Positions 35,710 through 60,900 of a DNA stretch of 64,000 nucleotides are shown here, one piece after another. Below the pieces are notes generated by a model. That model had not been told where the DNA came from. It searched no databases and saw only the letters and a program-made list of their open reading frames with translations. Position 1 is the stretch's first letter. The number at the start of each line of letters is the position of its first letter. Source of the stretch: Sphingopyxis sp. OAS728 (lineage in GTDB: Bacteria > Pseudomonadota > Alphaproteobacteria > Sphingomonadales > Sphingomonadaceae); NCBI RefSeq assembly GCF_014873485.1, contig NZ_JADBDT010000001.1, positions 3,838,501-3,902,500 on the forward strand, in the 5' to 3' direction. A program made the position numbers and the translations under genes.

Positions 35710-35787
35710 ATGCCCGTGCGCGCGTTCGTCAGCATCACGGCCAGCGACAAAGTTAACGGCCTTTGCCGTCCGGTGGCGCGCGCATGA
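35710..35787 (+). CDS. 25-codon leader ORF coupled to redox flavoprotein
   Basis: ATG 35710 directly behind a purine-rich AGAGGGGGAAAGG ribosome site; 25 residues (starts MPVRAFVSITASDK, ends RPVARA). Its TGA overlaps the ATG of the large flavoprotein gene (ATGA), while that gene has no good ribosome site of its own. This predicts translational coupling: ribosomes finishing the leader start the flavoprotein. No hydrophobic or amino-acid-rich stretch suggests classical attenuation. Confidence 0.5.
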   Translation: MPVRAFVSITASDKVNGLCRPVARA

Positions 35788-38219
35788 GCGAGCCGGTCAA
35801 GGTCGCGATCATCGGATCGGGGCCCGCTGGGCTCAGCGCGGCATCGCGCGCCGCGCAGCTCGGGCTTAGCCACATCTTACTCGAAAAGACCGACCACCTG
35901 TCGGACACGATCTTCAAATATCAAAAGGGCAAGCGCGTGCTCGCGACGCCCGAGCGGCTCGACCTGCGCTCCGACTGCCGTTTCGCCGAGGGGGCCCGCG
36001 AATATATCCTTGGTAATTGGGATGAGGACGCCGCGAACAACAAGGTGAATGTGGCGTATCATGCGGAGGTCGCCGAAGTGACCGGCGCGAAGGGCGCGTT
36101 CGCGATCAAGACGACCAAGGGCGACGTCTACACGGCCGAGAATATCGTGCTCGCGATCGGGACGCAGGGCAACCCGAACCGGATGCGCTGTGAGGGCGCT
36201 GACCTGCCGCACATCATCTATCAGGTCGACGATCCCGAGGATTTCAAGGACAAGCATATCACCGTCGTCGGGTCGGGCGACGCGGGGATCGAAAATGCGC
36301 TCGGCGTCGCCGAGGAGGCGCTCGAAAACACGGTCACGATCCTCAACCGTTCGAAGGATTTCGCGCGCGCCAAGGCGAAGAATGTCTCCGACATGACCGA
36401 GGCGGGCGAGAATGGCTTCATGTCGATCCGCACCGAGACGCAGCCGAAAAAGGTCGAGCCGGGTTGGCTGACGCTCGAAACCCCGACGGGGGAGGAGCGG
36501 ATCGAATGCGACGTCATCGTCGCGCGCCTCGGATCGGTCGCGCCGCGTGGCTTCGTCGAATCGATGGGTATCGAGTTCACCGGCCCCGACCGCGAAGCCT
36601 TTCCGAAACTGTCGCCGACCTTCGAGACGACGGTGCCCGGCATCTATGTCATCGGCGCGCTCGCGGGTTATCCGCTGATCAAGCATTGCATGAACCAGGG
36701 CTATGACGTCGTCGAGTTCCTGAACGGCAACAAGGCGCTGACTCCCGCCGACGAAAAGGATCTGGCGGCGATCTTTGCGGGCCTGCCGCAGAAGAAATCG
36801 GTCAGCGAGTGGCTGGAATATCTGCGCACGCGGATCCGCATCTTCGCCGATGTGTCGCCGCTCCAGATGCGCGAATTCATGCTCGATTCGAAAGTCGCCT
36901 ATTATTCCAAGGGCGATGTCGTGTTCGAGAAGGGCGAACCGGGTTCGTCGCTGTTCGCGATTGCCGACGGCCATGCGGTCGTCGAGGTCGGGCCCAATCT
37001 CGAGGTGCCGATCGAGCAGGGATCGATCTTCGGCGAGGTGGGGTTGATCTCGGGCCGCAAGCGCGGCGCGACGATCCGCGCCGGCGAGGACAGCATCTTC
37101 GTCGAAGTGTCGCGCACGGCGGCGCTCAAGCTGATGGCGGCGGTGCCGGGCGCGAAGCGCGTGATCAACCGCATCTCGCTCGAACGGCAGCTGCTGCAGA
37201 TTTTCAAGGGGGGGCTGACGGTCGAGGATCTGCAGCCGATCGCCGAGGACCCCGCGATCGAGCGCGTGCCCGCGGGCAAGGTCGTGATGGCGGAGGGCGA
37301 CGAAGGCGATGACGTCTATGTCATCCGTTCAGGGTCGATGGTCGTCGAGAAGGACATCGGCGGCAAGCCGATCTTCCTCCGCTATTTGCCCGCGGGCAGC
37401 TATTTCGGCGAAATGGCGGTGCTCAGCGGGGAAAAGCGCAACGCGACGGTCAAGGCGGCGGTCGCGAGCGAAGTGATCCGGCTGAAGGGCGACGAATTCA
37501 AGGCGATGCTCGCGAAACGGCCGCAGGTGCGCGAGGCGACCGAGGCCGCGGTAGCCGAGCGTGCGGCGATGAACAGCTTCATCGAATCGCGGAAAGCGAC
37601 CTATTCGAGCGCGGTCGATCTTTATTCGGATACCGCAAGCTTCATCATGAAGGAGGGACTGGGCGAGGCGACCGACGCCCTACTGATCGACGAGAATCTC
37701 TGCGTCGGCTGCGACAATTGCGAAAAGGCGTGCGCCGACAGCCACGAGGGCCTGTCGCGGCTCGACCGCGAAGCGGGCAAGAGCTTCGCGCATCTGCATG
37801 TGCCGACGAGTTGCCGCCACTGCGAGCATCCGCATTGCATGGCCGACTGCCCGCCGAACGTGATCCACCGCGGCCCCGACGGCGAGGTGTTCATGGAGCC
37901 CGGCTGCATCGGCTGCGGCAATTGCATGCGCAACTGCCCTTATGGCGTGATCCGCATGGAGGCTGCGCCGCCCGAGAAGCCGAGCCTGCTGCGCTGGCTG
38001 CTCACGGGCTTTGGTCCCGGGCCGGGCGAACCCTCGCCCAAATGGACAAAGAAGCAATTGGGCGAAGAGAAGCCCAAGAAGATCGCGGTTAAATGCGACA
38101 TGTGCAAAGGTATTTCGGGCGGCCCGGCGTGCGTGCGCGCCTGTCCAACGGGCGCTGCGATCCGCGTTTCGCCCGAAGAATTCCTGTCGATCGCGCGGCT
38201 CGACGAGGACACCGACTGA
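35784..38219 (+). CDS. flavoprotein with two cyclic-nucleotide-binding domains and four [4Fe-4S] sites
   Basis: 811 residues from ATG 35784. Residues 1-330 are a thioredoxin-reductase-like FAD/NAD(P) module with two Rossmann motifs (AIIGSGPAGLSAA at 9-21, VVGSGDAGIENA near 162) and PGIYVIGALAGYPLIKH; the CxxC pair of true thioredoxin reductases is absent. Residues about 360-475 and 485-600 are two cNMP-binding domains (FGEVGLISGRKRGATI and FGEMAVLSGEKRNATV). Residues about 635-795 hold sixteen cysteines in a NrfC/DmsB-type ferredoxin domain (CVGCDNCEKAC, CRHCEHPHCMADC, CIGCGNCMRNC, CDMCKG...CVRAC). Predicted soluble cytoplasmic NAD(P)H-linked electron carrier gated by cyclic nucleotide. The start of the membrane partner overlaps its stop (TGATG). 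Confidence 0.93.
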   Translation: MSEPVKVAIIGSGPAGLSAASRAAQLGLSHILLEKTDHLSDTIFKYQKGKRVLATPERLDLRSDCRFAEGAREYILGNWDEDAANNKVNVAYHAEVAEVTGAKGAFAIKTTKGDVYTAENIVLAIGTQGNPNRMRCEGADLPHIIYQVDDPEDFKDKHITVVGSGDAGIENALGVAEEALENTVTILNRSKDFARAKAKNVSDMTEAGENGFMSIRTETQPKKVEPGWLTLETPTGEERIECDVIVARLGSVAPRGFVESMGIEFTGPDREAFPKLSPTFETTVPGIYVIGALAGYPLIKHCMNQGYDVVEFLNGNKALTPADEKDLAAIFAGLPQKKSVSEWLEYLRTRIRIFADVSPLQMREFMLDSKVAYYSKGDVVFEKGEPGSSLFAIADGHAVVEVGPNLEVPIEQGSIFGEVGLISGRKRGATIRAGEDSIFVEVSRTAALKLMAAVPGAKRVINRISLERQLLQIFKGGLTVEDLQPIAEDPAIERVPAGKVVMAEGDEGDDVYVIRSGSMVVEKDIGGKPIFLRYLPAGSYFGEMAVLSGEKRNATVKAAVASEVIRLKGDEFKAMLAKRPQVREATEAAVAERAAMNSFIESRKATYSSAVDLYSDTASFIMKEGLGEATDALLIDENLCVGCDNCEKACADSHEGLSRLDREAGKSFAHLHVPTSCRHCEHPHCMADCPPNVIHRGPDGEVFMEPGCIGCGNCMRNCPYGVIRMEAAPPEKPSLLRWLLTGFGPGPGEPSPKWTKKQLGEEKPKKIAVKCDMCKGISGGPACVRACPTGAAIRVSPEEFLSIARLDEDTD

Positions 38220-39100
38220 TGGCGAGCCTGTTTCAGCGGCGCCGGTCGAAGGCTACGCAGGTCGAGCGTGTCCGCGAGCGACGGCATGAGGGGTTCCTGC
38301 GCTATGCGGGGTTTCGCTGGGCGAAGATTTCGGGCGGGCTCTGCCTGCTCATCATCGTGAGTTACGCGCTGGTCGACGTGACGCCGCGGCACAATGGCGG
38401 CAGCTGGTACGGCTATACGCTGGGGACGATCGGCGCGGGGCTGATCCTGTGGCTGACCGCGCTCGGCTATCGCAAACGCAAGATGACGAGCGATCACTGG
38501 TCGCTGAAGGCGTGGACCTCGGCGCATGTCTATCTGGGGCTCAGCCTGATCGTCGTCGGCACTTGGCACACGGGGTTCCAGCTTGGCTGGAATGTCCACA
38601 CGCTGGCATGGGCGTTGATGATGCTCGTGATCCTGTCGGGCCTCTATGGCGTGATAGTCTATGCGACGCTGCCGCAGGCGCTGTCTAACAATCGCGAGCA
38701 GATGACGCAGATGCAGATGCTCGAGGCGATCCGGGCCTTCGACCGGCAATTGCACAGCGCCGCGCAGCCGCTGACCCCGGAGGATACGGCGCCGGTGCTC
38801 GCGGCGCTCGACGAAGATCCGTTCGCGGGCGGAGTCGTTGCGCGCCTGTCAGGGCGCTATTCGAATTGCGCAACGTCGGCGGCGCTGCGTGCGCTCACTC
38901 TGTCGCGGAGCAGCGATGCCGGTGCGCGCGAGAAGGTCGTCGGACTGCTCAAGCAGAAGGAAGCGGCGCTCGCGCGGCTGCGCCAGCATCTCCGGATTCG
39001 CGGGATGCTCGAAATCTGGCTTTACGTGCATGTGCCGCTGACTTTTGCGCTGATCGCGGCGCTGTCGGCGCACATCATCAGCGTCTTCTTCTACTGGTGA
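38219..39100 (+). CDS. membrane diheme b-type cytochrome subunit
   Basis: 293 residues. About five membrane segments (38-54, 64-84, 99-119, 127-149, 266-291). Two helices each carry a pair of histidines at HX13H spacing: His103/His117 and His271/His285. That spacing is the mark of two stacked b hemes held between two helices, as in cytochrome b and ferric-reductase-type proteins. A cytoplasmic loop (about 150-255) is charged and partly helical. It is wedged by overlaps between the Fe-S flavoprotein and the decaheme cytochrome, so it should pass electrons across the membrane between them. I know no named family for it. Confidence 0.88.
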   Translation: MASLFQRRRSKATQVERVRERRHEGFLRYAGFRWAKISGGLCLLIIVSYALVDVTPRHNGGSWYGYTLGTIGAGLILWLTALGYRKRKMTSDHWSLKAWTSAHVYLGLSLIVVGTWHTGFQLGWNVHTLAWALMMLVILSGLYGVIVYATLPQALSNNREQMTQMQMLEAIRAFDRQLHSAAQPLTPEDTAPVLAALDEDPFAGGVVARLSGRYSNCATSAALRALTLSRSSDAGAREKVVGLLKQKEAALARLRQHLRIRGMLEIWLYVHVPLTFALIAALSAHIISVFFYW

Positions 39101-39110
39101 GGCGCGGACG

Positions 39111-41045
39111 ATGAGCTTCATCCTGCGTCGCATCTCGACGACCAAAACGGGCAAGCAGATCATCCGCGATGCGGCGCTGCCGGGCGACACGATCACGCTG
39201 GGCCGCGAGGGCAGCAACACCATCCACGTCGCCGATTTGGCGGTGAACCCGCATCATGCGACGATCAGCAGCGCCGACGGGCGTACCGTGCGTGTCGCAG
39301 CGAGCGAGGGGCTGGGTTTCGATCTTAACGGGCGGACCGAAACCGTTGCCGATATCGACAGCGGCGCGGGCGGCGAACTGCGTTTCGGCGGGCACCGCCT
39401 GACGATCGCGCGCGAGGACGAGAATATCATCCTCCTCGTCGAGCGCATCGACGAATTGTCGCAATCGTCGAAGGATGTCGACGAGGCCAAGGCCTTTTCG
39501 CTGCAGGGCGTGATGCTCGGCAAGCGCATGGGGGCATGGGTGTTCGCGGCGGTAATGCTGCTTGCTTTCCTGATCGGGCCGATCTGGGCGTGGTACAGCT
39601 ACAAGAATGTCAACGAGCGCCCCGACGGTTATCATGCCGACAGCGCCTGGCTTTCGGGGCCGCTGTCGAGCGCGCACGCGAGCCTGAAGAATGATTGCCA
39701 GTCGTGCCACGTCGAGCCTTTCGTGGCGGTGACCGACAAGGCGTGCGTCAATTGCCACACCGGCGAGCATAAGGCGATGAGCATGGCGCACGCCAATGCG
39801 CCGACCGCGATGCTGCTCGCTGCGCGCCATCCGCCCGGGGTCGGCGAACGCATCCTCGACGGCTTTGCCAAGACCTTCAACAAGCCGCAGGGGCGCTGTG
39901 TCGAGTGCCATACCGAGCATGAAGGGTCGGGGCCGATGCCGGCGACGCCGCAGAAATTCTGCGCCGATTGTCATGACGGCATGTCGGTGCGGCTGAAGAC
40001 CGCGGGCCATCCGACGACGCTCGCCGATGCCGCCGATTTCGGAACGAGCCATCCCGAATTCCGCCCGCTCGTGCGGCCGGGACCGGGCGGCAAGCTGGTG
40101 CGCACGACACTGGCCAAGGGTTTGGTCGACTATAATGGCCTCAAATTCCCGCACGACATGCATTTGCAGGCGACGGGCGGGGTCGCACGCATGGCTGCGA
40201 GTTTCCGCGGCCGCTATGATTTCGGGAAGAAGCTCGAATGCCAGAATTGCCACCGCCTCGAGGCCGACGGGGTGCGCGTGAAGCCGGTCGAGATGGAGCG
40301 TGACTGCGCCATGTGCCACAGCCTCGCGTTCGAGACGGTCGGCGGTGTGACGCGGACCTTGCGCCATGGCGAGCCCGATCAGGTCGTTGCCGACCTCACC
40401 GCTTATTATCGTTCGGCGCCGCCCGCGCGGCCCTTGCAACTCGGCGGGATGCAGCGGCGGCGCCCGGGCGCTTATGCCGAGGGGCAGGTCTACAACATCT
40501 ATTTCAACGAGGTGGCGACGCGCCCGAGCCGCGCGCAGGATGCCGTCCGCGCGGTCTTCTCAAAGGGCGGCGCCTGCTACGACTGCCACACGATCTTTGC
40601 GCCGCAAGCGGGCAGCGGCTGGCGGGTGGCAGCGGTCGACCAGACGCCGCGCTATCTGCAAAAGGGCTGGTTCGATCATGATGCGCACCGCGAGACCGAG
40701 TGCGCCGACTGCCACACCGCCGCGCCGGCGTCGAAGGCGTCGACGGACCTGCTCGTGCCGGGGCTTCGCCAGTGTCGCGACTGCCATGTCGGCGAGGGCG
40801 GCGCGCGCGTCGTGAAGGTCGAAACCGCGACCGAATCGCCCTGCGCGATGTGCCACGAATATCATTCGGACGGCGGAAAACCGTGGATGCCGCCGCGCCA
40901 GCGCAAGAAAAACACCGCCGCAATCACAAATAAACGTCTTGGTGGTAGCCAGGGTGTGAGCATGATCACAGGAACCGGGGGGCGGGGCCTTTACGAAGTG
41001 ACATGGCGCACACCTTCCTTGCGCGCGGCAGGGCAGGGCGGATAG
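39111..41045 (+). CDS. FHA-domain membrane-anchored decaheme cytochrome c
   Basis: 644 residues. Residues about 1-110 form an FHA domain (DTITLGREGSNTIHVADLAVNPHHATIS) with the GR arginine kept, but with the usual S-R-x-H altered to N-P-H-H. One membrane helix at about 142-163 (AWVFAAVMLLAFLIGPIWAWY) follows, then a periplasmic domain with ten CXXCH heme sites between residues about 195 and 581 (CQSCH, CVNCH, CVECH, CADCH, CQNCH, CAMCH, CYDCH, CADCH, CRDCH, CAMCH). FHA inside, hemes outside. The last ~45 residues after RQRKKN lack cytochrome character and run across a CRP-type box, so the true end could be earlier or a frameshift may be present near the A run at 40909. Confidence 0.9.
   Translation: MSFILRRISTTKTGKQIIRDAALPGDTITLGREGSNTIHVADLAVNPHHATISSADGRTVRVAASEGLGFDLNGRTETVADIDSGAGGELRFGGHRLTIAREDENIILLVERIDELSQSSKDVDEAKAFSLQGVMLGKRMGAWVFAAVMLLAFLIGPIWAWYSYKNVNERPDGYHADSAWLSGPLSSAHASLKNDCQSCHVEPFVAVTDKACVNCHTGEHKAMSMAHANAPTAMLLAARHPPGVGERILDGFAKTFNKPQGRCVECHTEHEGSGPMPATPQKFCADCHDGMSVRLKTAGHPTTLADAADFGTSHPEFRPLVRPGPGGKLVRTTLAKGLVDYNGLKFPHDMHLQATGGVARMAASFRGRYDFGKKLECQNCHRLEADGVRVKPVEMERDCAMCHSLAFETVGGVTRTLRHGEPDQVVADLTAYYRSAPPARPLQLGGMQRRRPGAYAEGQVYNIYFNEVATRPSRAQDAVRAVFSKGGACYDCHTIFAPQAGSGWRVAAVDQTPRYLQKGWFDHDAHRETECADCHTAAPASKASTDLLVPGLRQCRDCHVGEGGARVVKVETATESPCAMCHEYHSDGGKPWMPPRQRKKNTAAITNKRLGGSQGVSMITGTGGRGLYEVTWRTPSLRAAGQGG
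40955..40970 (+). promoter_or_regulatory. perfect CRP-type palindrome upstream of phosphodiesterase
   Basis: TGTGA-GCATGA-TCACA, identical in both half-sites to the CRP consensus TGTGA-N6-TCACA. It lies inside the 3' tail of the cytochrome gene, about 120 bases before the phosphodiesterase start, a workable activator or repressor position. Confidence 0.65.
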
Positions 41046-41088: not shown

Positions 41089-41937
41089 ATGCTGATCGCG
41101 CAGATCACAGATATCCATATCGGGTTCGATCCGGACAATCCGGCCGAATATAACCGCAAGCGCCTCGACGAGGTGCTCGACGTGCTGATCGAGGGGCCGA
41201 ACCGGCCCGACCTGTTGCTCGCCACCGGCGACCTCACCGATCGCGGTGACGACGACAGCTATCGCCGCCTCGCCACCGCCTTTTCGCGTTGCCCGTTTCC
41301 GGTTTGGCCGAGCGTCGGCAATCACGACCTGCGCGACAGTTTCCATGCGCGCTTTCCGGGGTTCGACGACGGCAATGGCTTCGTCCAATATACGGTCGAG
41401 CTGCCCGACCTGCGGCTGGTGACCGTCGATACGCTGGAGGAGGGGCGTCATGGCGGCGCTTTTTGTGAGCAACGCGCGGCGTGGCTCGATGCCGAACTGG
41501 CGAAGGACCGGGCCAAGCCGACCTATATCGTCATGCACCACCCGCCGGTCGAAAGCGGGATCGAGTGGATGAATACCGATCCCGACGAGCCGTGGGTCGG
41601 GGCGTTCACCGATGTTGTCCAGCGACACCCGCAAGTGCGCGGATTGATCTGCGGACACCTCCACCGCAGCGTTACCGTCGCATGGGAAGGCCGCACGGTC
41701 GCGATCTGCTCGTCGACCGCGCCGCAGGTCTCGCTCGACCTCCGGCCCATCGACGAGAACAAGCCCGACGACCGCCCGATGATCGTCGCCGAAGATCCCG
41801 CCTATGCGCTCCACCGCTGGAACGGGCGCGAGCTCGTCAGCTTTTACGACCATGCCGGCGCACACACGATGCTGGCCAAATATGACGAACGGTTGCAGCC
41901 GCTTGTGCGCGAGTTGAAGGCCGAGCGGCCGCGCTAA
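41089..41937 (+). CDS. class III cyclic-nucleotide phosphodiesterase-like metallophosphoesterase (CpdA type)
   Basis: 282 residues with an AGGGGACGG ribosome site. The calcineurin-type dimetal motifs are all there: ITDIHIG, LLATGDLTDRG, SVGNHD, MHHPPVESG and GLICGHLHRS. The overall length and spacing match CpdA-type 3',5'-cAMP phosphodiesterases; a different phosphodiester substrate cannot be excluded. It starts 43 bases after the decaheme cytochrome gene of an operon whose first protein has two cNMP-binding domains, and a perfect CRP box precedes it. Both point to cAMP as its substrate. Its 3' end overlaps the convergent hydrolase by four bases. Confidence 0.88.
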   Translation: MLIAQITDIHIGFDPDNPAEYNRKRLDEVLDVLIEGPNRPDLLLATGDLTDRGDDDSYRRLATAFSRCPFPVWPSVGNHDLRDSFHARFPGFDDGNGFVQYTVELPDLRLVTVDTLEEGRHGGAFCEQRAAWLDAELAKDRAKPTYIVMHHPPVESGIEWMNTDPDEPWVGAFTDVVQRHPQVRGLICGHLHRSVTVAWEGRTVAICSSTAPQVSLDLRPIDENKPDDRPMIVAEDPAYALHRWNGRELVSFYDHAGAHTMLAKYDERLQPLVRELKAERPR

Positions 41938-45256: not shown

Positions 45257-48200
45257 TTACTGCGCCGGTGGCGTCCACAGATCGTCGTTGCCCGCACCTG
45301 TCACCGGATCGTCAAGCAGTGGCTCGCCGGTCAGCGGATCGAGATCGCGCATCGTGATCAGCGCCTGCGGGAATGTATTGCCTTCGCCGACGCCGTCATC
45401 GTCTTCGACCTCTTCGTCGATGACGTCCTGGACGGGGAAGTTGTTCTCGAAATCGATGGCGACCGTGGTGCAGGCCGTCGGCGCGGCGATGAAGCATCCG
45501 TTGACGGTCGAGCGCCGATCATAGGTGCCGACAACCGGCGCCGAACCACGCACCGTAAGAAGCTGGAGCGCTTCGAGGCCGGTGACCTGGCCGTTGGGGC
45601 CGAGTTGCACACCGTTGACGACGATGCGCGACTGGCCCTGCGTCTGCACGTCGAGGCCGCCGGCGCCGAAGGTCAGCCCCCGCCGCTGTGCGAGGTCCGT
45701 TCCCGCGCCGCTGTTCTGGACATAGAAGCCGCCCACCACATTGGCGCGGATTCCGCGGGCGAAGAGCGCGCCTTCGTCCAGTACGACACCGTCATTTTCT
45801 CCGAGCCGCGCATTGATGGCGTCCATGCTTCCTGCAGCGCCCACCGCGGTGATCGCGGCCTGCGTCGCGACAATGACGTCATCGGACTCAAGGTTGAGCT
45901 GACCCCCGGGCGCATTGTTTGCGCCGGTGAGGCGGACGGTGCCCTGACCAAGGATGACCTCGAGCGCGTCATTCGCGATCAGGTTCAATGCATTGGTGTC
46001 GGAGAGGCCCGTGAGCTGGACATTGCCGATCACGCGCATCTTGCCCGGCGTACGGATCGTCAGCGCGCCGTTGGCGCCGAGGTTCGATCCCGCCGCGCCG
46101 CCGGTCATGGTGAAGCTGTCGACGATGACGTCGGGCGGCGCGGCCGATCCGACCGAACCGCCGCTCGCAGCCTGTACCTCGGGCGCAAAGATTTCGATCT
46201 GGGTGCCGTAGAGGCGCGTCAGTTCGTCGGCATCGATATGATAGCCGTTGGGCCCGTTGGGGCCGGCAGTGCCGCCGACGAAGGTCTGGTTGTCGGGATT
46301 GTTGTTGGCGACCGATAGCTGCTGGGTCACGCCCGCGGTGCCGACACGGCCGGTGGCGGCGATGTTGATTCCCGCCGAAGCGAGCGAGATCGCCTGGCCG
46401 GTGACAACGCCGTTGATGCCGAGCGACGCAAGAGCCGAGGCATTGAGGTTGCCCGCGACGGTGACCGTGTCGAGATTCAGGAAACCGCCGGTATTGGCGA
46501 TGTTCGCATTGGCGGCAGTGAGGTTGCCGATGGTCATCGCCTCGCCCTGGGTAGCGAGATCCGCGGTGCCGGCGACATTGCCCTCGGCGACCGAAAAATC
46601 GCCGCCACCGCGGACATAGGCGTCGCCGACATCGGTGGTCAGCGTGGCAAAATGCATATCGCCGCCGCTTTCGATGCGGATGGCGTTGGCGCTGGCATTG
46701 ATCAAATTCGACGCGAGGAGGCTTCCGATCTGGATATTGCCGTCGCTGCTGTCGAGACTGGTGGTGCCGAGCACATAGGCCGCATCGACGGCGATGCCGG
46801 CAGCGGCGGCGAGCGTGACATCCTGTCCCTCGATCGAGGCGATGTCGATCGTATTCGCCGCGGTCAGCGTCGCGTTGCCGAGCGCGCGGACGCCGCCGCC
46901 CGTGATATCGGCCGAAGAGTTGACGATGACGTCGCCGTCGGCGCTCAGCGTCGGGGTCGCGGCGCCGCCTACGCCCGGGAGCGCCGCAAGCGTGACATCC
47001 TGCGCGTTGATCGTCGCGTTGCGCCCCGCCGCGACCGGGCCCGAAAGATTGGCAATTCCCGCGGCCTCGACCGTCACGTCGCTGAACGCGTCGAGCCCGG
47101 CAAGCGTCGTTGCGCCGCCCTGTGTGCGGATGCTGCTGTCGCCGCCGGTCGTGCCGAGGCCCAGCGTGGTCGCGCCGTTGACCGCGATGCTGTTCGCGGC
47201 GTTGAGCAAGATATCGTCGCCTGCCGACAGGGTGGCCGCGTCGATCGCCCCGGCAGTCGATGCCATCACGATGTCGGCGCCGTCGATGCCTTGCGCCCCT
47301 TCGCCCGTGCCTATCGTGAAGGTCGGGCTGCCCGACGCCGTCGAAAAATCGAGGATATGCGTGTCGGCCCCGGCGCCGGTCGTGCGGACATTGAGCGCAT
47401 CGATGTTGCCCGCCGCGCGGACGGTGATGTCGTCGCCGCCCGTGACGTCGGTCAGGCTTGCGATCGTTCCCGCGATGACCAGGACGTCCTCGCCCGCCGT
47501 CCCGCCATCGATCGACGCCGCGCCGTCGGCATTGACGCCGAACATGCGCGCGGCCGAACTGTCGGCGAGCGTCGCATTGCCGGCAGCGACGACGAACAGA
47601 TTGCCCTCTGCCCCGATCCCGTTGCGGTCGACATAACCGCCATTCGCCTGGGCTGACGCATTGATATTCGCGTTCGAATTCAGGAAGATATTGCCGCCGG
47701 ATACGTAGGTGCCGGTCAGGTCGTCCGCGGCGAAGATCGAAATGTTGCCGTCGACGTCGGCGTTGTTCACCGACACCGCGCCGCCCGTGCCGAAGGCAAA
47801 GAAGGACGCCGCGCCCGTGACATTGCCGCTAAGCGCGATGCTGTTGGCGAAGAGGTTGATATCCTCGCCCGCGCTCAGCGAGCCGCCGCTGATGCCCTCG
47901 GCTCCGGGCGCCGTTCCTTCGGCCGAGAGGCCGATCGACAGTCCCGCGGCGATATTGTTGAAGGTGATCGACTGCCCCGAAACCTGCACGAGGCCGCCTG
48001 CGGTCGAATTGCCGAGATCGACCGCGCCCGGCGACGTGACGATGATATTGCCGCCGGTGATGAGCGAGTTAAGCCCGGTGCGGAAGCTGCCGACATTCGC
48101 AATGAAGTCGCCCACCGCTTCGGCATGTTCGACGCTCGCAGCGCCGGCGCTGCTGAGGATGATATTATTACCCGCGAGGCGGTCGACGCCGATCGTTCCG

Positions 48201-51200
48201 GTGGGACCAGACGCGCTCAGCGAGAGCAGGTTGCCGGCACCCAGCAGGCTACCCGGCGCGGCGCTGATGCTGGTCGCTGCCGATGCGATCAGGCTGTCGC
48301 TGGCGCGCAGCGTTGCGGCGGTCCCTTCGCGAAGGTCGTGCCGGATGTCGATCTGGTCGCCCGCCGTCATCGTGAGGGCGCCGTCGACATCGAACATACT
48401 GTCCGACTGGGCATAGACGCCGACCGAGCCGTCGGTCGTCAGTGTGACATCGCCCTGGCTGGATATCGTCCCGCCGGTCGGCGCGATGAAGATGCCTGCG
48501 AGCGCCTCGTCGGTGTCGTTGTTCGTCGGTGCGGCAACGCCCAACGCCTCTGCCTCGAGCACTGCGAACGCGATGTCGCCACCCGCGCGGATTTCGATGC
48601 GACCGGCGATGTCGCCGTTCGCGGTAATGCTTGTCGAACCGAGGTCGATCTGGCCGGGGCCGGACGCGCCAGCTGACGCTTCGATTACGACACGGCCGCC
48701 CGTCGTCCCGCTGAGGCCGCCATTCGCTCCATTGACGCCGGTACCGGTGCCTGTGCCGCCGACGCCCGCCTCACCCGATATGCCGCTGACGGTGATGTCG
48801 ACGGCCTCGCCGTTCGAGGCGATCGTCCCGCCGTTAGCGAGAAGAACGACGGTGCCGCCGGTTGCCCCACCGCCATTGCCGCCGTCGCCCCCGCTCGAAT
48901 TGCCGAAGAATCCGCCATCGGATCCTGCGCCGCCGATGCCGCCGCGGCCAGTGCTGCTCAGGACGACGCTGTCCCCGGTCAGGAAGCCGAGGGTGACGGA
49001 GCCGCCCTCGCTGGCGATGATTTCGACCGTGCCGCCCTGTCCATTGCCGCCAGTGCCGCCGGAAGGCGCGACCGCCGGGGTCGCCGCAAAGGCAAGGCCG
49101 CCCGCGCCGCCATTGCCGCCCGTGCCGCCGGAAATGAAATTGCTTTCGAGGGCTGTCAGGCTTGCACCTGTGCCATCGGCCAAAATTCGCGACGTTCCGC
49201 CCGCGCCATTGCCGCCATTGCCCCCGGCGCCATCGTTCCCATTGGCGCCGGCGCCGCCGGTCCCGGTCGAATTCAGCGTGACGGCCAACTCACCTGCCTC
49301 GAAACCCGCGACGATTGCCTGCGCGATACCCCCGAAGCCGTCACCGCCGTTGCCGCCGACATTGTGGGTGCCGCCTGTGCCCCCGGTGCCGAGCGCGATG
49401 CTGTTTGCGATGCCGATGCCGCTGATCGGCGTTGCGAGCGCGAGCGTGGCGATGCCCCCGCGTCCGGCGCCCCCCGTACCCCCGGCGCCGACGCCGGTCG
49501 CGGCGCCGCTGCTGCTCGAGAAGAAGCTGGCGCCGCCGGTACCGCCGATGCCCGACGCGTTGGCGATCATGCTGCTGGCGGTGGTCGTGCCGCCACGGAC
49601 GTTCACCGTCGCGTCGCCGCCGATGCCGTCACCGCCGGCGCCTGGCGTGCCCGGCACGCCGCCGAAGCTTGAGAAATTGAAGAACTCGCCGCCTTCGCCG
49701 CCGTTACCGACGGCGCTCGCCTGGATCAGGCTGGCGTCGACGATCGCGGCCCCTTCGATATTGATCGTCGCGCTGCCGCCGCGACCCAGGCCGCCGATGC
49801 CGCCCGGGATGATGTTCGCCGGATCCTCGTCGGTGCCGGTCGAGCCAATGCCGCCCAACCCGTCGGCGGTCGCGACGATGTCGGCGGTGTTGATCGAGCC
49901 GCCGAGCAGATTGATTGTCGCCGTGCCGCCGAGGCCGAAGCCCGACTGGCCCTGCACGACGCCGCCGAAGCCATCGGCGCTGACCACCAGGTCGTTGACG
50001 TCCGCTGCGCCGCCCGTCTGGGTAAAGGTCGCGGTGCCGCCGACGCCAAGACTGTTATCGCTCGCGCCATTGCCGCCATAGCCGTTCGCCGAGACGCTGA
50101 CCGACGATCCGTTGAGCGTTCCGCCCTGGATATCGAAATCGACGTTGCCGCCGCGCCCGGTACCCGAGGTTTCGCGAGGCGCCGTCGGCGTGGTTTCGAA
50201 ATCGACCTGCGTGCGACCCTCGGCCGATGCCGCGAAGTCGCCGAGGCTGATTGCGCTGCTGTTGAGCGGATCGGCGACGACCCGGACCAATATCGAACCG
50301 CCGGTGCCCTCCGCAATCGCCGCGCCCGGCGCGGTTGCCCCGCCCGAAACGCCGCCAGCCGTCAGCGTGCCGCCGAGGCCGAGGTTGATCGAGCCGGCAT
50401 TGGCGATCAGCTGGATCGCGCCGCCGGTCGCATTCGTTCCCGCCGCGCTGGCGCCCGTCCGGGCGCTGGCGTTGAGGATGTTGGGAGAATCGAGCGTCGA
50501 GACGATTTGCCCGGCATTTTGCGCGACCAGGTCGATCGTCCCACCCCGCGCGGTGCCGCCGGTGCCGGTGACGTTCACCGTGTTGCTGCTGGCGTTCACA
50601 TTATAGACTTCGGCACGGATGGTCCCGCCATCCGCGAGGAAATCGACGTTGCCGCCGAACCCGTCCCCGGCGCTTTGCCCGATCGCGTTCGACGTGCTGC
50701 CGCCCATCGCCTGAACGGTCAGCAGGTTGCCCGTGGTGATCGTGCCGCCGGCGGTCGCATTGATCGCGACATTGCCGCCGGTGCCGGTCCCGTAATTCTC
50801 GCCCGCAATTCCCATGCCGACGGCGAAGAGGTTGACCGCGCCGCTGCTGTCGATCGTCGAGCCGTTCGCTGCGGCCAGGGTCACATTGTTCGCTTGCGCA
50901 TCGCCCGACCGGCCGCTGGTGCCGCTCGGGGTGACGGCGCTGCCGGCCTGCGCCGACGCGTTCAGGGTGATCGCGGTAAATTGGGCGGTGACGCCGCCGT
51001 CGACCGTCAGCCTCGCCGTACCGCCCGTGGCATTGCCGCCCACTGCATTCTCGTTGCCGGTGGCAATGCTGCCGGCGTTGCCGCCCCGGCCCAGCGCGCT
51101 CGCGCCGAGTGCACCCAGCGACACCGTCGACGCCGCGTCGGCATTGACCAGCACCTCTGCCGTGCCGCCCGTGCCGTCGCCGCCATTTTGCGTGATCCCG

Positions 51201-53083: not shown

Positions 53084-53084
53084 G

Positions 53085-54905: not shown

Positions 54906-55088
54906 CACCACCCCTTGCGCGCAGGCGCCGCCGCGACGATCGCGGTGCGCCAATTTCACTGGCTCCACCGGAAACCGGCAGGGCGAATTGCGACCCAAGG
55001 AAAGGCTCCGCCGATTGGATGGCGGAATTTCCTCAGGAGATTATCAGACGGATAGGGCAGCGACAATGGCTGCCCCCATCCATTCACC

Positions 55089-55847
55089 TCATCCCGCCTC
55101 GGCTTCCGACATCGTATCGACGAGGCGGTTGAGCTGCGGCGAGCAGCCCTTGGCCATCAGCATGTCGACCGATCCCTCGACCGTGTCGGGCGCATTCTCC
55201 ACCGCCGAGAAACGCACCGTCACCGGTTTGGTGAGGCCGCCGCCCGACAGGCGATAGTCGGTGCCATATTGCACCGGCAGAACATCGGTCGGCCATTTAC
55301 GGAAATTCGCGCCGTCGACGATCGCGACGGTCGTCTTCTTGCCCGCGCTCTCGATCTCGAGTGCGGTGTCGCCCTCCATGTTTGGGCGCCACAGCATCAG
55401 TACGGCCGGATCTAGCACGCAGAAGGTACCGCCCTCGCGATAGTCGAGCAGCCACAGGTTCGGCGCTCGGACATTCGCCGGCGTTTCGTCGCCCGTACCC
55501 CGCGAAAACCCGCCGCGCGATCGCATCGTCGGGCCCTTGGCGAGCATCCGCGTCACATTGCCGCCGAGCGATTGGCTGGCCTGCACCGTGCCGGTGGCGC
55601 CAAAGGTGCCGGGCCCCGACAGCGTGCGCGTCTTGCCCGCCTGCATCAACACCACCTTGTCGCCCGCGACGAGGGTGAGCTTGTCGGCGGATTTCAGCTT
55701 GGCGCCGGTGGGATATTTACTCGCCGACGGACCCGTTGAACGCACAACCATCGATTGCGCGGCAGCGGTGCCGGCAAAGGCGACGGCCGCGATCGCGGCT
55801 ACGGCGGAGAGGCCGAGGCGGCGCATCCGGAAATCAGGAAAGGACAT
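55089..55847 (-). CDS. exported unknown protein of CHAT/TPS operon
   Basis: 252 residues with a Sec signal (LGLSAVAAIAAVAFAGTAAAQS). Middle part LTLVAGDKVVLMQAGKTRTLSGPGTFGATGTV resembles the FecR-like beta fold used by periplasmic scaffold proteins, and a cysteine pair lies at GTFCVLD and KGCSPQL. AGGGAGAAA precedes its ATG, which overlaps the cyclase stop by 14 bases. It is in the same transcription unit as the cyclase and CHAT peptidase, 183 bases ahead of tpsB. Function unknown. Confidence 0.85.
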   Translation of the reverse strand: MSFPDFRMRRLGLSAVAAIAAVAFAGTAAAQSMVVRSTGPSASKYPTGAKLKSADKLTLVAGDKVVLMQAGKTRTLSGPGTFGATGTVQASQSLGGNVTRMLAKGPTMRSRGGFSRGTGDETPANVRAPNLWLLDYREGGTFCVLDPAVLMLWRPNMEGDTALEIESAGKKTTVAIVDGANFRKWPTDVLPVQYGTDYRLSGGGLTKPVTVRFSAVENAPDTVEGSVDMLMAKGCSPQLNRLVDTMSEAEAG

Positions 55848-57924
55848 AGCTTTCTCCCTCTTTTGTCTCGTTCAGGCGTTCTATCAGAAACATGATGGAT
55901 GGATCCTGACCGAAATCCGCCTGTATTGCTGTGGCACAGGTCACATAGGCCTTTTTGTCACCGGCGCTGTGCGCCGCGACCAGCGCGGCGATGCGCGCGC
56001 GCCGATCGGGGGCGAGGTCGGGGCGCGGGGTGAAGACATCGACGGGCTGTGCCCGGCCGCGCAGCGTGACGCGGCCCATCGGCACCAGATCGTCGCGACC
56101 CGATCGCGCCGCCGCCTCGGCTGAAATCAGTACGCCGGTCTTGAGCCCCTTGTTCGCGGCCTCGAGCCGCGACGCGGTGTTCATGCTGTCGCCGAGCGCG
56201 GTGTACTGGATACGCCCTTCGCCGCCGAAATTGCCGACAATCGCATCGCCGACGTGCAAGCCAACGCGCGTCATGCCGATCGGCGGGACGTCTTCGGCGG
56301 CGAGGTCGACACGATATTTCTCGCCTGCCTGATACATGGCGAGCGCGGCGGCGGCGGCCTGTTCGCCATCGTCGGGGCGGCTGAGCGGCGCGCCCCAGAA
56401 GGCGACGACGGCGTCGCCGACGAATTTATCGATCGTCCCGCCATGTTCGAGCACGATGTCCGACAGGCGGTCGAGATATTCGTTGAGCAGCCGGGCGACG
56501 GTTTCCGGCGTCACGGCATGGCTCAGCTTCGTAAAGCCTTCGAGGTCGGTGAAGACGCAGAAGATATTGCGCCGCTCGCCGTGGAGCGAGAGCTGGTCGG
56601 GGTCGCGCATGATCTGCGCCGCGACGTCGGCGGGCAGATATTTGCCGAGCGCCGACTGGGCAAAGGCGCGCTGGCGCGATCCGACGGTGCGCGCCGCGGT
56701 GCCGACCGCGGCGTAACCGAACAGCCAGCCGATCGCCCAGCCAAAGGTCGGGAGCGTCGTCGTGTCGACGCCGCGACTTTGCAGCCAGAAGGGGAAGGCG
56801 ACGAAAAAGGCCATCTGGCCGAGGAAGGCCAGCGCGACCCAGCGCGCGCGCAAGTCGATCAGGCTGGTGAGCCCGCCCGCGAAGACGACGAGGATCGCGA
56901 GGACCCAAAGGGCGGGCGCCGCAATCGGCCGCGTCCATGCGCCGTCGAGCTGCTGCGCGAGCATATGCGCATGGACTTCGAGCCCGATCATCGTTTCATG
57001 CTGCCCGGTGATCGCGTCGGGAAAACGGCTGAGTGGCGTGTTAAACTGGTCGTTGTCGATGATGTCGCCGCCGATCAGCACGTAACGGCCCTTGACCAAC
57101 TCCGAAAAGCCGGCGCGCATTTCGGCATCCATCGGCATCGCGAAAGTGTCGATCGGGATATTGGCGAAGACCGGCTCTTCCTGTCCCGCGGCGGCGCGGG
57201 CGGGAACGAGGAAGCGGATATTGCCCTGGAAATTCGCATGCGCTGCGTCGACCGGCGCCAGCGCGTTCGACATCAAAGGCGGCAAATTCTCCGGCCGGTC
57301 GGGCCAGTTGCGGATCACGCTGTCGTCGTCGGTGCGGAACAATACGCTCGTCGGCTTCGTCTTCGCGGTCGTCACGTCGGCGATATAGGCTTCGAGATAT
57401 TTCTGCTGTTCGTAAAAGATCGTGTTCGGATTGCTCGCCTGTTCGGCATAGGCGAGCCAGGTCGGGGTCTTCATCGCGCGCAATTGCGCCTTCAGCACAT
57501 CGTCGTCGGGGCGCGGCGAGTCGAACGCGATATCGATGCCGATCGCTTTCGCACCCATCTGGTCGAGATTGCCGAGCGCGTTCGCCAGCAAGGTGCGGTC
57601 GAGCGGCGAGCGGATGCCGGTGTTGAACAGCGTTTCGTCATTATAGGTGACGAGGGTGATGCGTTTGTCCTGCTCGACATGCGGCGCCATCAGCGTCGCG
57701 CGTGCGTCGTAGAGGGCGCGTTCGGCGGCATCGATCAGCGGCATCTGCCAGCTGAAGCGCGCGATCAGGATCGCGATCAGCAGGAAGGCGATCGTCGCCG
57801 CCATCCGCGACGGCCCAAGCTGCATGACAAGCCGGCGCACCCGCTTGCGCAGCGGAACCGCGGCCTGTTGGCCGTCCTGCGCGGGCGTGTCCGCCGCGGG
57901 CGTAAGGACTTCGGGTGCGTTCAT
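55834..57924 (-). CDS. CHASE2-domain class III adenylate cyclase
   Basis: 696 residues from ATG 57924, five bases after the CHAT stop. Transmembrane anchor near 42-60, a periplasmic CHASE2 sensor (IDAAERALYDARATLMAP, ITLVTYNDETL, AKAIGIDIAFDSPRPDDD, YVLIGGDIIDNDQFNTPLSRF), three more helices (about 355-440) and a catalytic domain: metal Asp residues in VFTDLEGFTKLS and FVGDAVVAFWGAP, adenine-type Lys in TIDKFVGD, and Asn/Arg in ALGDSMNTASRLE. All catalytic positions of an active cyclase are kept, so it should make cAMP in response to a periplasmic cue. Confidence 0.95.
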   Translation of the reverse strand: MNAPEVLTPAADTPAQDGQQAAVPLRKRVRRLVMQLGPSRMAATIAFLLIAILIARFSWQMPLIDAAERALYDARATLMAPHVEQDKRITLVTYNDETLFNTGIRSPLDRTLLANALGNLDQMGAKAIGIDIAFDSPRPDDDVLKAQLRAMKTPTWLAYAEQASNPNTIFYEQQKYLEAYIADVTTAKTKPTSVLFRTDDDSVIRNWPDRPENLPPLMSNALAPVDAAHANFQGNIRFLVPARAAAGQEEPVFANIPIDTFAMPMDAEMRAGFSELVKGRYVLIGGDIIDNDQFNTPLSRFPDAITGQHETMIGLEVHAHMLAQQLDGAWTRPIAAPALWVLAILVVFAGGLTSLIDLRARWVALAFLGQMAFFVAFPFWLQSRGVDTTTLPTFGWAIGWLFGYAAVGTAARTVGSRQRAFAQSALGKYLPADVAAQIMRDPDQLSLHGERRNIFCVFTDLEGFTKLSHAVTPETVARLLNEYLDRLSDIVLEHGGTIDKFVGDAVVAFWGAPLSRPDDGEQAAAAALAMYQAGEKYRVDLAAEDVPPIGMTRVGLHVGDAIVGNFGGEGRIQYTALGDSMNTASRLEAANKGLKTGVLISAEAAARSGRDDLVPMGRVTLRGRAQPVDVFTPRPDLAPDRRARIAALVAAHSAGDKKAYVTCATAIQADFGQDPSIMFLIERLNETKEGESYVLS

Positions 57925-57928
57925 CGGA

Positions 57929-60900
57929 TCAGCGGGCAGCGCGGCCGGCGGCCTCTCCATTCCGGGCGGTTGCCGTGTCGGTGTGGAGCAACGCCTGACC
58001 GCCATCGCCGATGATCGCAAAGCCGGCCCAATAATAGGGGTGCGATGTTTGCTTGTCGTCCATCAGGTGCAGCTGGGTCCCCCACAGGGCGTCGGCGACG
58101 CTCGTGCCCTGATTGGCCGCAAATAGCCCGCCGATCAGTCTCTTGGTCGCGTCGAAATCGTCGGGTGCGGGCCAATGGCTTGCGATTACCGACCGGCCGC
58201 CGGCGCCGATGAAGCTGCGCACCAGCCCGTCGAGCGCGTTGCCGCCGCCTGAAAGCCCGGCCTCGCGCGTCGCCGCGACGCTCGCCGCGCCGGCGGTGTC
58301 GCAGGCCGAGAGGATGACGAGGTCGGCGTCGATCTTGAGGTCGAAGATTTCCTGGAAGGTCAGCAGGCCGTCGGAATCCGCGCCGCCGAACGAGGTGATC
58401 AGTGCCGGGCGCGCGGGGCACGCGGGTCGTGGCGCGGTGACAAGGCCGTGCGTCGCGAAATGGATGATGCGATAGTCGCCAAGGTCGGCGCGGCTTTTCA
58501 CCGCCGTGTCGGTGAAGGCGCCGCCGGTGAGCAATGTACCTGCATCGCGGCCCATCGCGTTGCGCGCCGTGACGAGTTCGTCGGCCGAGATCGGGCGCGC
58601 CCATTGCGCGACATCCCACAGGCAATCGCCATCGACGGCGCCCGCTGCGCCGCCGCGGGTCCCGAGCGAGGGCAGGCGTGCACCGACCGGCAGATTCTCG
58701 CCGAGCCCGAAATATTGGTTGGCCGCTTTCGATGGCGCCGCCTGCCGCGCGTTACGGAAGCCGAGGGTCGAAACCGCCGTGCTCGGGCGCGATGTCCGGC
58801 CCAGCCACGCGATCTGGCGCATGTCGAACGGATCGGCGTCGGGATCGAGCAGGCGCTGCTCATAGGCGGCGAGCCCGGTGTCGGCGGTGACGAGGAGATT
58901 GATCGGCAGCCGCAGCATCGCGCCGTCGGGTTCGAAGATCAGATGCTGGATGGTGGGCAGCCGCGCTGCAACGGGTGCGAACAGCTGGCCATAGAGTTTG
59001 TAAGAGGTTGCGGCGTCGAACGGATAGGTGACGCGGCGACCATTTTCGACGATCGAGATGGTCGAACGGATCGTGTCGACCGCGGTGTCGAGCGCCGATG
59101 CGCTAATGTCCGATTTCCAGAGCTGCGCGCCGCCCGGCTCGATCAGCATCGCGTAAACGCCGTCGCCGACGACGAGCATCTTCAGATAGGCTTCGTCGGG
59201 ACGCAGCACCTGCTGCAATTCGGCGAGATCGAGCTTGCCCGACGCGACGACGCGATATTGCGGGAAAGCCGACAGCGCGACGACGGTTTCGGCTTGCTGG
59301 AACGACAGATTGTCGAGCTGCGCCTTGATGTCGGCGCGCAAGGCGTTGACTTCGGGCGATTCGGGGAGCTGGGCGAGGCGCGCATCCTCGATGCGAGCGC
59401 GTTCGAGATCGCGCCCCAGCGTCGTCGCCTGACGGAACAGCCGGGCGCCGTCGCTGCTGCCGCCCGAAAGTTCGCGCGCGAGCACGGCTTGCGTATCGGC
59501 GACGCCCGGGCGGATCTGGAGCTGGCTGGCGACGAAGAAATCCTCGATCGCCTTGGGGTCGGTGGCCGACCGTGCGGCGAGCAGCCGATAATAGGGCGCC
59601 ATCATGTTCGCCATGCCCGCGGTCGAGCGCTGCGTATTGGCGAGCGCGGTCACGACTTCGCGATAGATGCCCATCGCCTTGTCGTCCTGCCCCTCGCGGG
59701 TGAGGAAGGCGGCGTAGCGTGCGCGCGCCGAGGCAAGCGCGTTCGTTTCGGGATATTCGACGGCGAGCAGGTTCACCGATTCGAGGAAACGCGCGTCGGC
59801 TGCTGCCTTGTCGCCACTCGCTTCTTCGGCCAGCGCGAGTTCGCCGAGCATCTGCGAACGCAGGCGGATGATCGAGGTGACGCGGCCTTCGCGTACGGCA
59901 ATGGCGTCGGTCAGCCCCTTGAGCTGCGCGGTTTTCGCCGCCTCGGCATTGCCGCGCAGCCGTTCGACCGTGCCCAGCAGGTGGATCGCCTGCGCATCGA
60001 TGATCTGCGCGCGCTCCAGCGGCGACAGGCGCTCGCGATCGTTGCTCTGGCGGATCACGCGGGCGTTGTCGCCGCTGTTGACCCCGGCGACGATTTGCGG
60101 CGTCAGCGTCACCGCGCCGCCCGACACCGTGACGCCCGTCGTGAGCGGCGGGAGGGGCGTTTGCAGCCGTGCTGCGGCACCGTCGTAATCGCGCTGGTTG
60201 AGCGCGTTGATCGCCCGGAAATTGCGGCGAAGGCGCAGCTGCACCGGGTCGCCCGTCGGGATCGCCTCGACCTCGGCGAACAGGCGTTCGGCTTCGGCGA
60301 ATTCGCCGAGATTCGAGCGTTGCAGCGCGCGGTTCAGCGTGACTTCGGTCGGGTCGATGTCGGCCGCCGATTGTTCCTCGGCGGCGCGGCGCGACAGCGC
60401 CTCAAAAAATTCGGCCGCCTCGGCATAATCGCCGCTGTGGTTGCGCCGGTATCCCTCGGCCAGCGCCTTGTCGACGTCGATCGTCCCCGCGATCGTCCGG
60501 GCGAAGCCGTCGTTGCCGCCGACCGATGTCGTGGCGACCTTGATCACGCCCGGCATAACCCTGTGCTGGCGCACCGATTCGAGCGCGAGGTTGAGCGCGT
60601 CGGAATAAGCCGCAAAGCCTTCGACGCTATAGGTGACATGGCCCTTGGTTTCGATGCGCGTCTGCCACGCGATATTGCTGCCTTTGAGCGTGCAGGCGCC
60701 CTCGGCGGCGCAGACGACCGTACCGGCGCGGGCCTGTTCGATCCGCGCGAGCGCCTCGGCCGAGGTGGCGCGCAGCTCGCGAACCGTACCAACTGGCTGG
60801 CTCGCATCGCGGCAGACGATCGTCCAGGCGCGATCGAACATGCCCTTGACGACGCCGTCGCGGACGGTGGCCTGCACTTCGCAGAGCGAGCCGCCCTGTT

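Follow-up and report, generated by a model that had tools for sequence, protein, structure and literature searches.

Three adjacent genes of Sphingopyxis join a NAD(P)H-type flavoprotein, a membrane cytochrome b and a decaheme cytochrome c, with cNMP-binding domains fused to the first protein and an FHA-like domain to the last. What would such a trio do, in which direction would electrons run through it, and do the fused domains control the flow? The trio lies at 35784-41045 (+) of the window, which denotes the whole stretch of 64,000 nucleotides that was analysed (C1:3838501-3902500 of G000, a genome of 4.92 Mb in a single contig). An earlier note on this DNA had described a transmembrane electron path that is switched by cyclic nucleotides and by a phosphothreonine ligand. 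The path, the two cNMP domains and the synteny stand, with the ligands conserved; the phosphothreonine switch falls, as its contacts are lost. From sequence comparison we propose, with modest confidence, that the trio forms the inner-membrane part of an outward conduit of the PCC4 type, leading from NAD(P)H to the cell surface and possibly gated by cyclic nucleotides.

The trio is collinear within the family and beyond it

The three overlapping or adjacent genes encode P0001 (flavoprotein/cNMP/Fe-S), P0002 (cytochrome b) and P0003 (FHA-TM-decaheme cytochrome c), and their claimed domains were confirmed by Pfam, motif counts and alignments. Genes for pyruvate kinase and arginyl-tRNA-protein transferase lie 5′ of the trio, P0001 starting 237 bases past the latter, and a metallophosphoesterase gene (41089..41937, +) follows directly 3′. 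The closest named relatives of P0001 come from Sphingopyxis, with identities of 86-97%. Conserved synteny of the three proteins, the check proposed in the earlier note, was found: the three genes run collinearly in 76 of the 80 named loci, and in the other four (L065, L077, L081 and L092) the sequence ends inside or just past the part that is present. Another 32 loci, 27 of them outside the family and 5 within it, include 30 with the complete, collinear trio, some of which belong to other classes of Pseudomonadota. The two incomplete ones are L152, cut by a contig end, and L154, which truly lacks P0001. In L181 and L182, both from one genus, the flavoprotein and cytochrome b form a single ORF of 1123 and 1118 aa, respectively. 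Sphingobium records leave the trio genes mostly unnamed, annotating them as "hypothetical" or by domain.

A cytochrome b profile detected 52 carriers among 149 family genomes, 30 among the 289 genomes of a class sample (27 strong, 3 weak) and 15 among the 398 of a phylum sample. These 15 comprise 8 genomes of the family, 2 of the class and 5 of other classes. The 33 of 60 relatives with P0003 are the own genome and 32 of 35 from its genus; none of the 24 drawn from other families in the order has it.

P0001 combines FAD/NAD(P), cNMP-binding and ferredoxin-like domains

P0001 (35784..38219, +; 811 aa) begins with a TrxR/YpdA-like FAD/NAD(P) domain (residues ~1-318; 35784..36737, +). Pfam Pyr_redox_3 matches residues 9-291 with an E value of 1.2e-32, Pyr_redox_2 also matches, and the Bdr/YpdA structure 7a7b of the PDB matches the FAD domain with E 9.9e-21. 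A disulfide reductase of TrxR/YpdA function was rejected, as there is no conserved CxxC; position 15 is Ala in 74 and Cys in 2 of the 88 aligned sequences. A conserved Cys pair is likewise missing from the FAD domain, Cys242 occurring in 80/88 and Cys302 in 66/88.

Two cNMP-binding domains follow, matched by Pfam cNMP_binding in two stretches (E 3.7e-32). The first spans residues ~361-466 (36864..37181, +; motif G-E418...R427), and the second has its best Pfam stretch at residues 493-578 (37260..37517, +; motif G-E543...R552). Both contain the phosphate-binding cassette G-E...R-[STA]-A of CRP/PKA-type domains. The C-terminal part (residues 633-800; 37680..38183, +) is a ferredoxin-like domain for four [4Fe-4S] clusters, with matches to several Fer4 families including PF13247 (E 8e-10). 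P0001 has 20 Cys in all, and the 16 that lie beyond residue 630 are kept in 88/88 sequences. The phosphate-binding residues E418, R427, E543 and R552 are each kept in 87/88; the sole exception is L160, a distant PCC4-like protein with a gap at E418/R427. These alignments of 88 sequences, and those of 87 for P0002, comprise the window protein, L054-L110 and further loci, with 23 redundant close Sphingopyxis-type loci left out. The two cNMP-binding domains and sixteen ferredoxin cysteines that had been claimed for the FAD/NAD(P) protein are hence borne out.

P0002 is a diheme cytochrome b with five TM helices

The Met codon of P0002 (38219..39100, +) stands at 38219, so that the gene overlaps P0001 by the A of TGATG, and the stop codon ends at 39100. 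A longer ORF from 38093 was judged an unlikely start. In our numbering of 294 residues the true Met is residue 2. The protein carries two WX3HX13H motifs, W100-X3-H104-X13-H118 and W268-X3-H272-X13-H286, a combination that arose in 0 of 5000 shuffles of P0002; a third, plain HX13H match begins at H258. W268 and the four heme His are present in 87/87 sequences and W100 in 86/87, in agreement with the two bis-histidine pairs claimed before. One SGXXG motif lies on TM4 (G142 and G145 in 87/87; S141 in 83/87, with Thr in 4). Alignment-averaged hydropathy places the five helices at about 35-53, 67-85, 105-127, 130-148 and 273-291. By the positive-inside rule the N terminus is inside, so that H104 and H272 face the cytoplasm, and H118 and H286 the periplasm. 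This topology agrees with the fusion in L181/L182, in which the cytoplasmic Fe-S domain continues into the cytochrome b at its N-terminal end. The FRD Pfam family gave no match in P0002.

P0003 joins an FHA-like domain to ten c hemes

P0003 (39111..41045, +; 644 aa) consists of an FHA-like domain (residues ~1-110; 39111..39440, +), a single TM helix by hydropathy (residues 140-158; 39528..39584, +) and a decaheme region (residues 189-585; 39675..40865, +). Its ten CXXCH motifs were reached in at most 1 of 5000 shuffles and recur in 74/74 orthologues from L031-L110 with an intact 3′ end. Among 24 further loci the count is 10 in 21 and 9 in two of one genus (L181 and L182), and one locus, read in the wrong frame, was dropped. 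Nineteen diverse sequences all share the ten CXXCH and nine free His, and at least 90% of them also have a tenth, H229. In a wider alignment of 73 sequences the nine exceed 80% and H229 falls below 80%. Ten free His for ten hemes suggest bis-His ligation throughout, as would be expected of a wire rather than a catalyst.

The Pfam FHA model scores 15.5 bits on the window P0003 alone, under its cut-off of 20.7. Of 19 family members, 16 reach E <= 0.01 with PF00498 (3.9e-8 at best) and 17 are matched by Yop-YscD_cpl. The FHA fold is therefore credible, and the decaheme cytochrome c with an FHA domain was described correctly in the earlier note. The domain would lie on the cytoplasmic side, judging from the one TM helix and the basic residues before it. 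G31-R32 is kept in 73/73 sequences and H49 in 65/73. Positions 46 and 68 of P0003, which we equate with the phosphothreonine-binding Ser and the binding-loop Asn of Rad53 FHA1, hold Ser (as in Ser46) in 5/73 and Asn (as in Asn68) in 5/73. Since these contacts are so rarely kept, the proposed phosphothreonine switch is unsupported, and we rejected gating of this kind through the FHA domain.

An outer operon co-occurs with the trio

The trio is part of a larger system, the outer half of which is unlinked in G000 and co-occurs with it. In many Sphingomonadales loci a gene for a 1363-aa multiheme protein with LVIVD repeats is convergent to the trio, a named example being that of Sphingobium herbicidovorans pMSHV. 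Co-occurrence led to its homologue in G000, P0007, at C1:3130796-3135085 (L189:7797-12086), 0.75 Mb from the trio. P0007 (1429 aa, ten CXXCH, a C-terminal LVIVD propeller) is the last product of an apparent operon that runs from P0004, a tetraheme cytochrome of c554 type, through P0005, an HbpS-like protein with a lipobox-like N terminus, and P0006, a barrel-like protein. The "barrel" label derives from position, length and a single Pfam match precisely at the cut-off; P0006 itself has no such match, of the MtrB type or otherwise. Upstream of the operon, a glutamate dehydrogenase gene (L189:1055-2410) overlaps the start of P0004 as called. In 13 related loci a homologue is encoded near the trio, and the enzyme is a possible source of NAD(P)H.

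P0007 has a Sec-type signal, and no lipobox was seen. In 45 sequences chosen for many hemes, 322 of its 1429 columns are invariant and 16 free His are conserved. It is also the best-conserved part outside the family, with pieces mostly at 59-74% identity vs 24-30% for P0003, and it spends 143 aa per heme vs 49 in the periplasmic part of P0003. Over 51 residues it weakly resembles ExtM, a protein of operons for selenite/tellurite reduction, with a score well short of the model's cut-off. P0007 may be an enzyme.

In the family sample of 149 genomes, 52 have the trio, 53 a P0007-type cytochrome and 52 both. The homologue is hence present in 52/52 trio genomes and in 1/97 others (G081, 67% complete), a co-occurrence with a Fisher p of 1e-39, uncorrected for phylogeny. 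At least four genera (g36, g56, g99 and g100) mix carriers and non-carriers, and in each the trio and P0007 travel together. The two lie within 12 kb of each other in 25 of the 52 genomes, on the same contig at 18.6 kb-2.2 Mb in 16 and on different contigs in 11, some of which may be assembly breaks. In the class sample of 289 genomes the barrel and P0007 were each found in 20, the same 20, all among the 27 strong trio carriers and in 0 of the 262 others. The 7 of 27 carriers without barrel and P0007 count against the conduit reading and indicate that the outer module varies. When the study was extended beyond alphaproteobacteria, P0007 was detected in 3 of 7 trio carriers tested, a count that includes 1 of the 5 from other classes (G818).

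In the far loci, HbpS and barrel genes come after the trio in 16 of those mapped, and P0007 homologues adjoin the barrel. Between the decaheme and HbpS genes, several of these loci (L151:5915-6367 and relatives) have an ORF of ~150 aa that Pfam does not match. In L142, L153 and L154, the trio or its part is accompanied by 4-heme and 5-heme genes as well as an ORF of 526-538 aa. Fourteen "MHC" matches in far loci were left out, no such ORF being labelled there in the locus maps. The PCC4-like loci L160, L208 and L209 match P0001 and P0002 weakly but significantly. L160 and L209 encode a cNMP-FeS protein, an IMP with two WX3HX13H motifs and a 10-heme protein, along with an extra heme gene (5-heme in L160, 4-heme in L209), and in L160 a separate NAD_binding_1 plus Fer2 reductase gene lies beside the cNMP-FeS gene. 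Pfam cNMP_binding matches the L160 Fe-S protein in three stretches; therefore, cNMP domains are not special to the branch of the window.

Cyclic-nucleotide genes and promoters around the trio

The metallophosphoesterase next to the trio is putatively a class III cyclic-nucleotide phosphodiesterase (CpdA/SpdA/Rv0805-like; Metallophos E 9.5e-18). It matches SpdA with E 1.6e-40, still under the curated cut-off, as are the matches to cAMP-phosphodiesterase models, and Rv0805 with E 3.5e-19. Its gene adjoins the trio in 72 of 75 family loci with room (21/21 and 47/49 named, 4/5 further). Outside the family it does so in 0 of 22 loci with room, which counts against gating of the conduit.

The only PF00211 match of the genome is a 728-aa CHASE2-class III cyclase (55834..58020, -), 14.8 kb from the trio, a distance with a chance of ~0.6%. 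Its residues presumably make it an adenylate-type enzyme. In L057, L058, L060 and L084 (Sphingomonas-type) a homologue lies 1-2.5 kb upstream of the trio on the same strand. The cyclase was rejected as a firm partner, as a search of related loci gave homologues in no more than 7, of which two lie on the opposite strand. It is a possible source of ligand for the cNMP-binding domains, with weak linkage. The cyclase gene adjoins a two-partner secretion gene: the window holds at 45257-54998 (-) a 2608-aa ORF without a Pfam match beside a ShlB/FhaC-type transporter (53088-54998), and these probably form a two-partner secretion pair.

A promoter scan covered 111 upstream regions of the trio and two of the own outer operon. 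It found no CRP-type site, one FNR-type site (0.25 expected) and, with a loose FNR pattern, two (0.4 expected), none recurring. Control by oxygen or cAMP at the trio promoter was rejected on this basis, and the lack of a recurrent FNR- or CRP-type site also counts against the conduit reading. A loose RegA-like pattern appeared in 17 vs 5.35 expected from mononucleotide shuffles, an excess that GC-rich sequence can cause.

Discussion

The earlier note had known no named complex of this composition. That was wrong, as the trio corresponds to the inner part of PCC4, a putative porin-cytochrome cluster that the main text of He et al. (2017, PMC5566968) defines from genomes without function. PCC4 is found there in genomes of Fe(II) oxidisers and is drawn as an inlet from iron/manganese to the quinone pool. 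Its IMP has ~300 aa, five TM helices, SGXXG on TM4 and WX3HX13H on TM3 and TM5; an Fe-S (PF13247) gene stands upstream of the IMP gene in subgroup II and is absent from subgroup I, and in Oceanospirillum beijerinckii Fe-S protein and IMP are annotated as one gene. P0002 resembles this IMP in size, in its five TM helices and in both motifs, of which WX3HX13H also occurs in IMPs described as PCC3 and alone does not tell the two apart. P0001 contains PF13247 and is encoded upstream of P0002, as in subgroup II; L154, without P0001, resembles subgroup I; the single ORF of L181/L182 recalls that of O. beijerinckii; and L142, L153 and L154 carry the 4-, 5- and 10-heme set with the ORF of ~530 aa.

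The trio differs in that its Fe-S protein is fused to FAD/NAD(P) and cNMP domains, and its decaheme protein to FHA; the terms "cyclic nucleotide" and "FHA" are absent from the main text of He et al. (PMC5566968). In G000, moreover, no 5-heme gene was seen beside the trio or the outer operon, which has the 10-heme P0007 instead; the 10-heme member of the PCC4 set is present, and the 4-heme P0004 is 0.75 Mb away. The trio cluster has no porin, and the barrel-like P0006 belongs to the separate operon. Because the IMP and Fe-S features agree and the composition of the cluster in G000 does not, we would class the trio as a variant of PCC4 rather than a member. In the open-licence literature we found no paper that names the cNMP/FHA-bearing trio. 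Relative to that literature, the novelty consists of conserved cNMP domains, a fusion with NAD(P)/FAD, an FHA-like fold that has lost its phospho-contacts, and the outer operon that co-occurs with the trio.

MtrCAB, MtoAB and PioAB likewise span the envelope with decaheme cytochromes and an outer-membrane barrel, but the trio's source is NAD(P)H/FAD rather than CymA and quinol. Membership in the MtrAB type was rejected: P0003 scores 17.4 bits against a cut-off of 192.2 in a DmsE/MtrA-type model, and P0006 has no MtrB match. NADPH oxidases and ferric reductases (FRD) also pass electrons outward from NAD(P)H through FAD to two HX13H b hemes, whereas in the trio Fe-S clusters lie between FAD and heme b and the acceptor is a ten-heme wire; the resemblance would be one of functional analogy only. 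CbcL and ImcH also join a b-type membrane part to multiheme c; PMC6295460 treats them as quinol oxidases. Unlike the trio, they lack a flavin or Fe-S subunit.

The scheme that we propose builds on cofactor ligands, topology signals, synteny and co-occurrence, all directly observed. NAD(P)H would be oxidised at the cytoplasmic FAD domain of P0001, and electrons would pass from FAD through the four [4Fe-4S] clusters to the N-side heme b (H104/H272), on to the P-side heme b (H118/H286) and then to the ten bis-His c hemes of P0003, which would serve as a periplasmic wire. The wire would hand them to the outer module of tetraheme cytochrome, HbpS-like lipoprotein, barrel-like protein and decaheme/beta-propeller cytochrome. 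The last of these, P0007, is taken as the terminal reductase, perhaps acting on an oxide of a metal or metalloid or on a quinone-like compound, with a presumed place at the surface. Cyclic nucleotide bound to the tandem domains, which stand between the FAD and Fe-S parts, would control the flow allosterically, and in Sphingomonadales its level would be set by the adjacent phosphodiesterase. Direction, surface location, substrate and cNMP control are what we infer from these features. L154, with no flavoprotein, speaks against the conduit reading, and we know of no carrier in which extracellular electron transfer has been shown through the conduit genes.

Given a conduit, outward flow appears reasonably likely. 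With a membrane that is negative inside, the potential favours electrons leaving NAD(P)H and opposes their delivery to NAD(P)+, and this is the reason for preferring the outward direction. The fused NAD(P)/FAD domain and the NAD-type reductase of L160 moreover suggest that NAD(P)H is the partner on the cytoplasmic side, and hence that flow is outward. The carriers of the trio are aerobes, and an extra donor would be useful to them, as in an inward conduit that takes electrons into the cell from Fe(II), Mn(II) or another donor oxidised by the outer module. The Fe(II)-oxidiser genomes with PCC4, modelled as inward to the quinone pool in the main text of PMC5566968, would fit such an inlet. The NAD(P)/FAD-Fe-S fusion of P0001 would then have to deliver electrons to NAD(P)+ against the membrane potential, and a NAD-type reductase neighbours the cNMP-FeS gene of L160 as well; we regard inward flow as unlikely. 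It is decidedly improbable that the path ends in the periplasm, with the trio feeding a soluble or outer-membrane-attached reductase (the propeller cytochrome) rather than the surface. The Sec-type signal of P0007 without a visible lipobox, its enzyme-like conservation and the faint ExtM similarity would suit such an end, but genes for a barrel-like protein and a lipoprotein accompany its own. Surface exposure, given a conduit, is finely balanced.

As to control, degenerate or structural cNMP-binding domains exist and CRP-type folds without ligand are common. The cNMP-binding and FHA domains might accordingly be structural leftovers that only hold a constitutive conduit together, as the lost phosphothreonine contacts and the absence of an adjoining phosphodiesterase outside the family would allow. 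A scaffold would have no need of the Glu and Arg of both domains, which persist across several classes, and we find this explanation rather unlikely. Gating by cyclic nucleotides, if the trio is a conduit, is itself slightly on the doubtful side. The full proposal is of a widespread conduit, in Sphingomonadales and other Pseudomonadota, whose electron flow from NAD(P)H towards a surface reductase is opened or closed by cAMP or another cyclic nucleotide on these domains; it is tentative and more doubtful still.

The outward, NAD(P)H-linked flow proposed for the trio would stand against the quinone-linked inlet drawn for PCC4 in the main text of He et al. (PMC5566968). If it holds, Sphingomonadales and other Pseudomonadota regarded as strict aerobes would possess such a conduit. 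The co-occurring outer operon turns the trio into a defined set of genes that can be deleted and assayed in aerobic sphingomonads. To our knowledge, only transcriptional control of electron conduits is known so far; the conserved cNMP-binding domains offer a testable case of direct control by a second messenger. If gating by cyclic nucleotides is true, these bacteria could switch extracellular reduction within seconds, without transcription.
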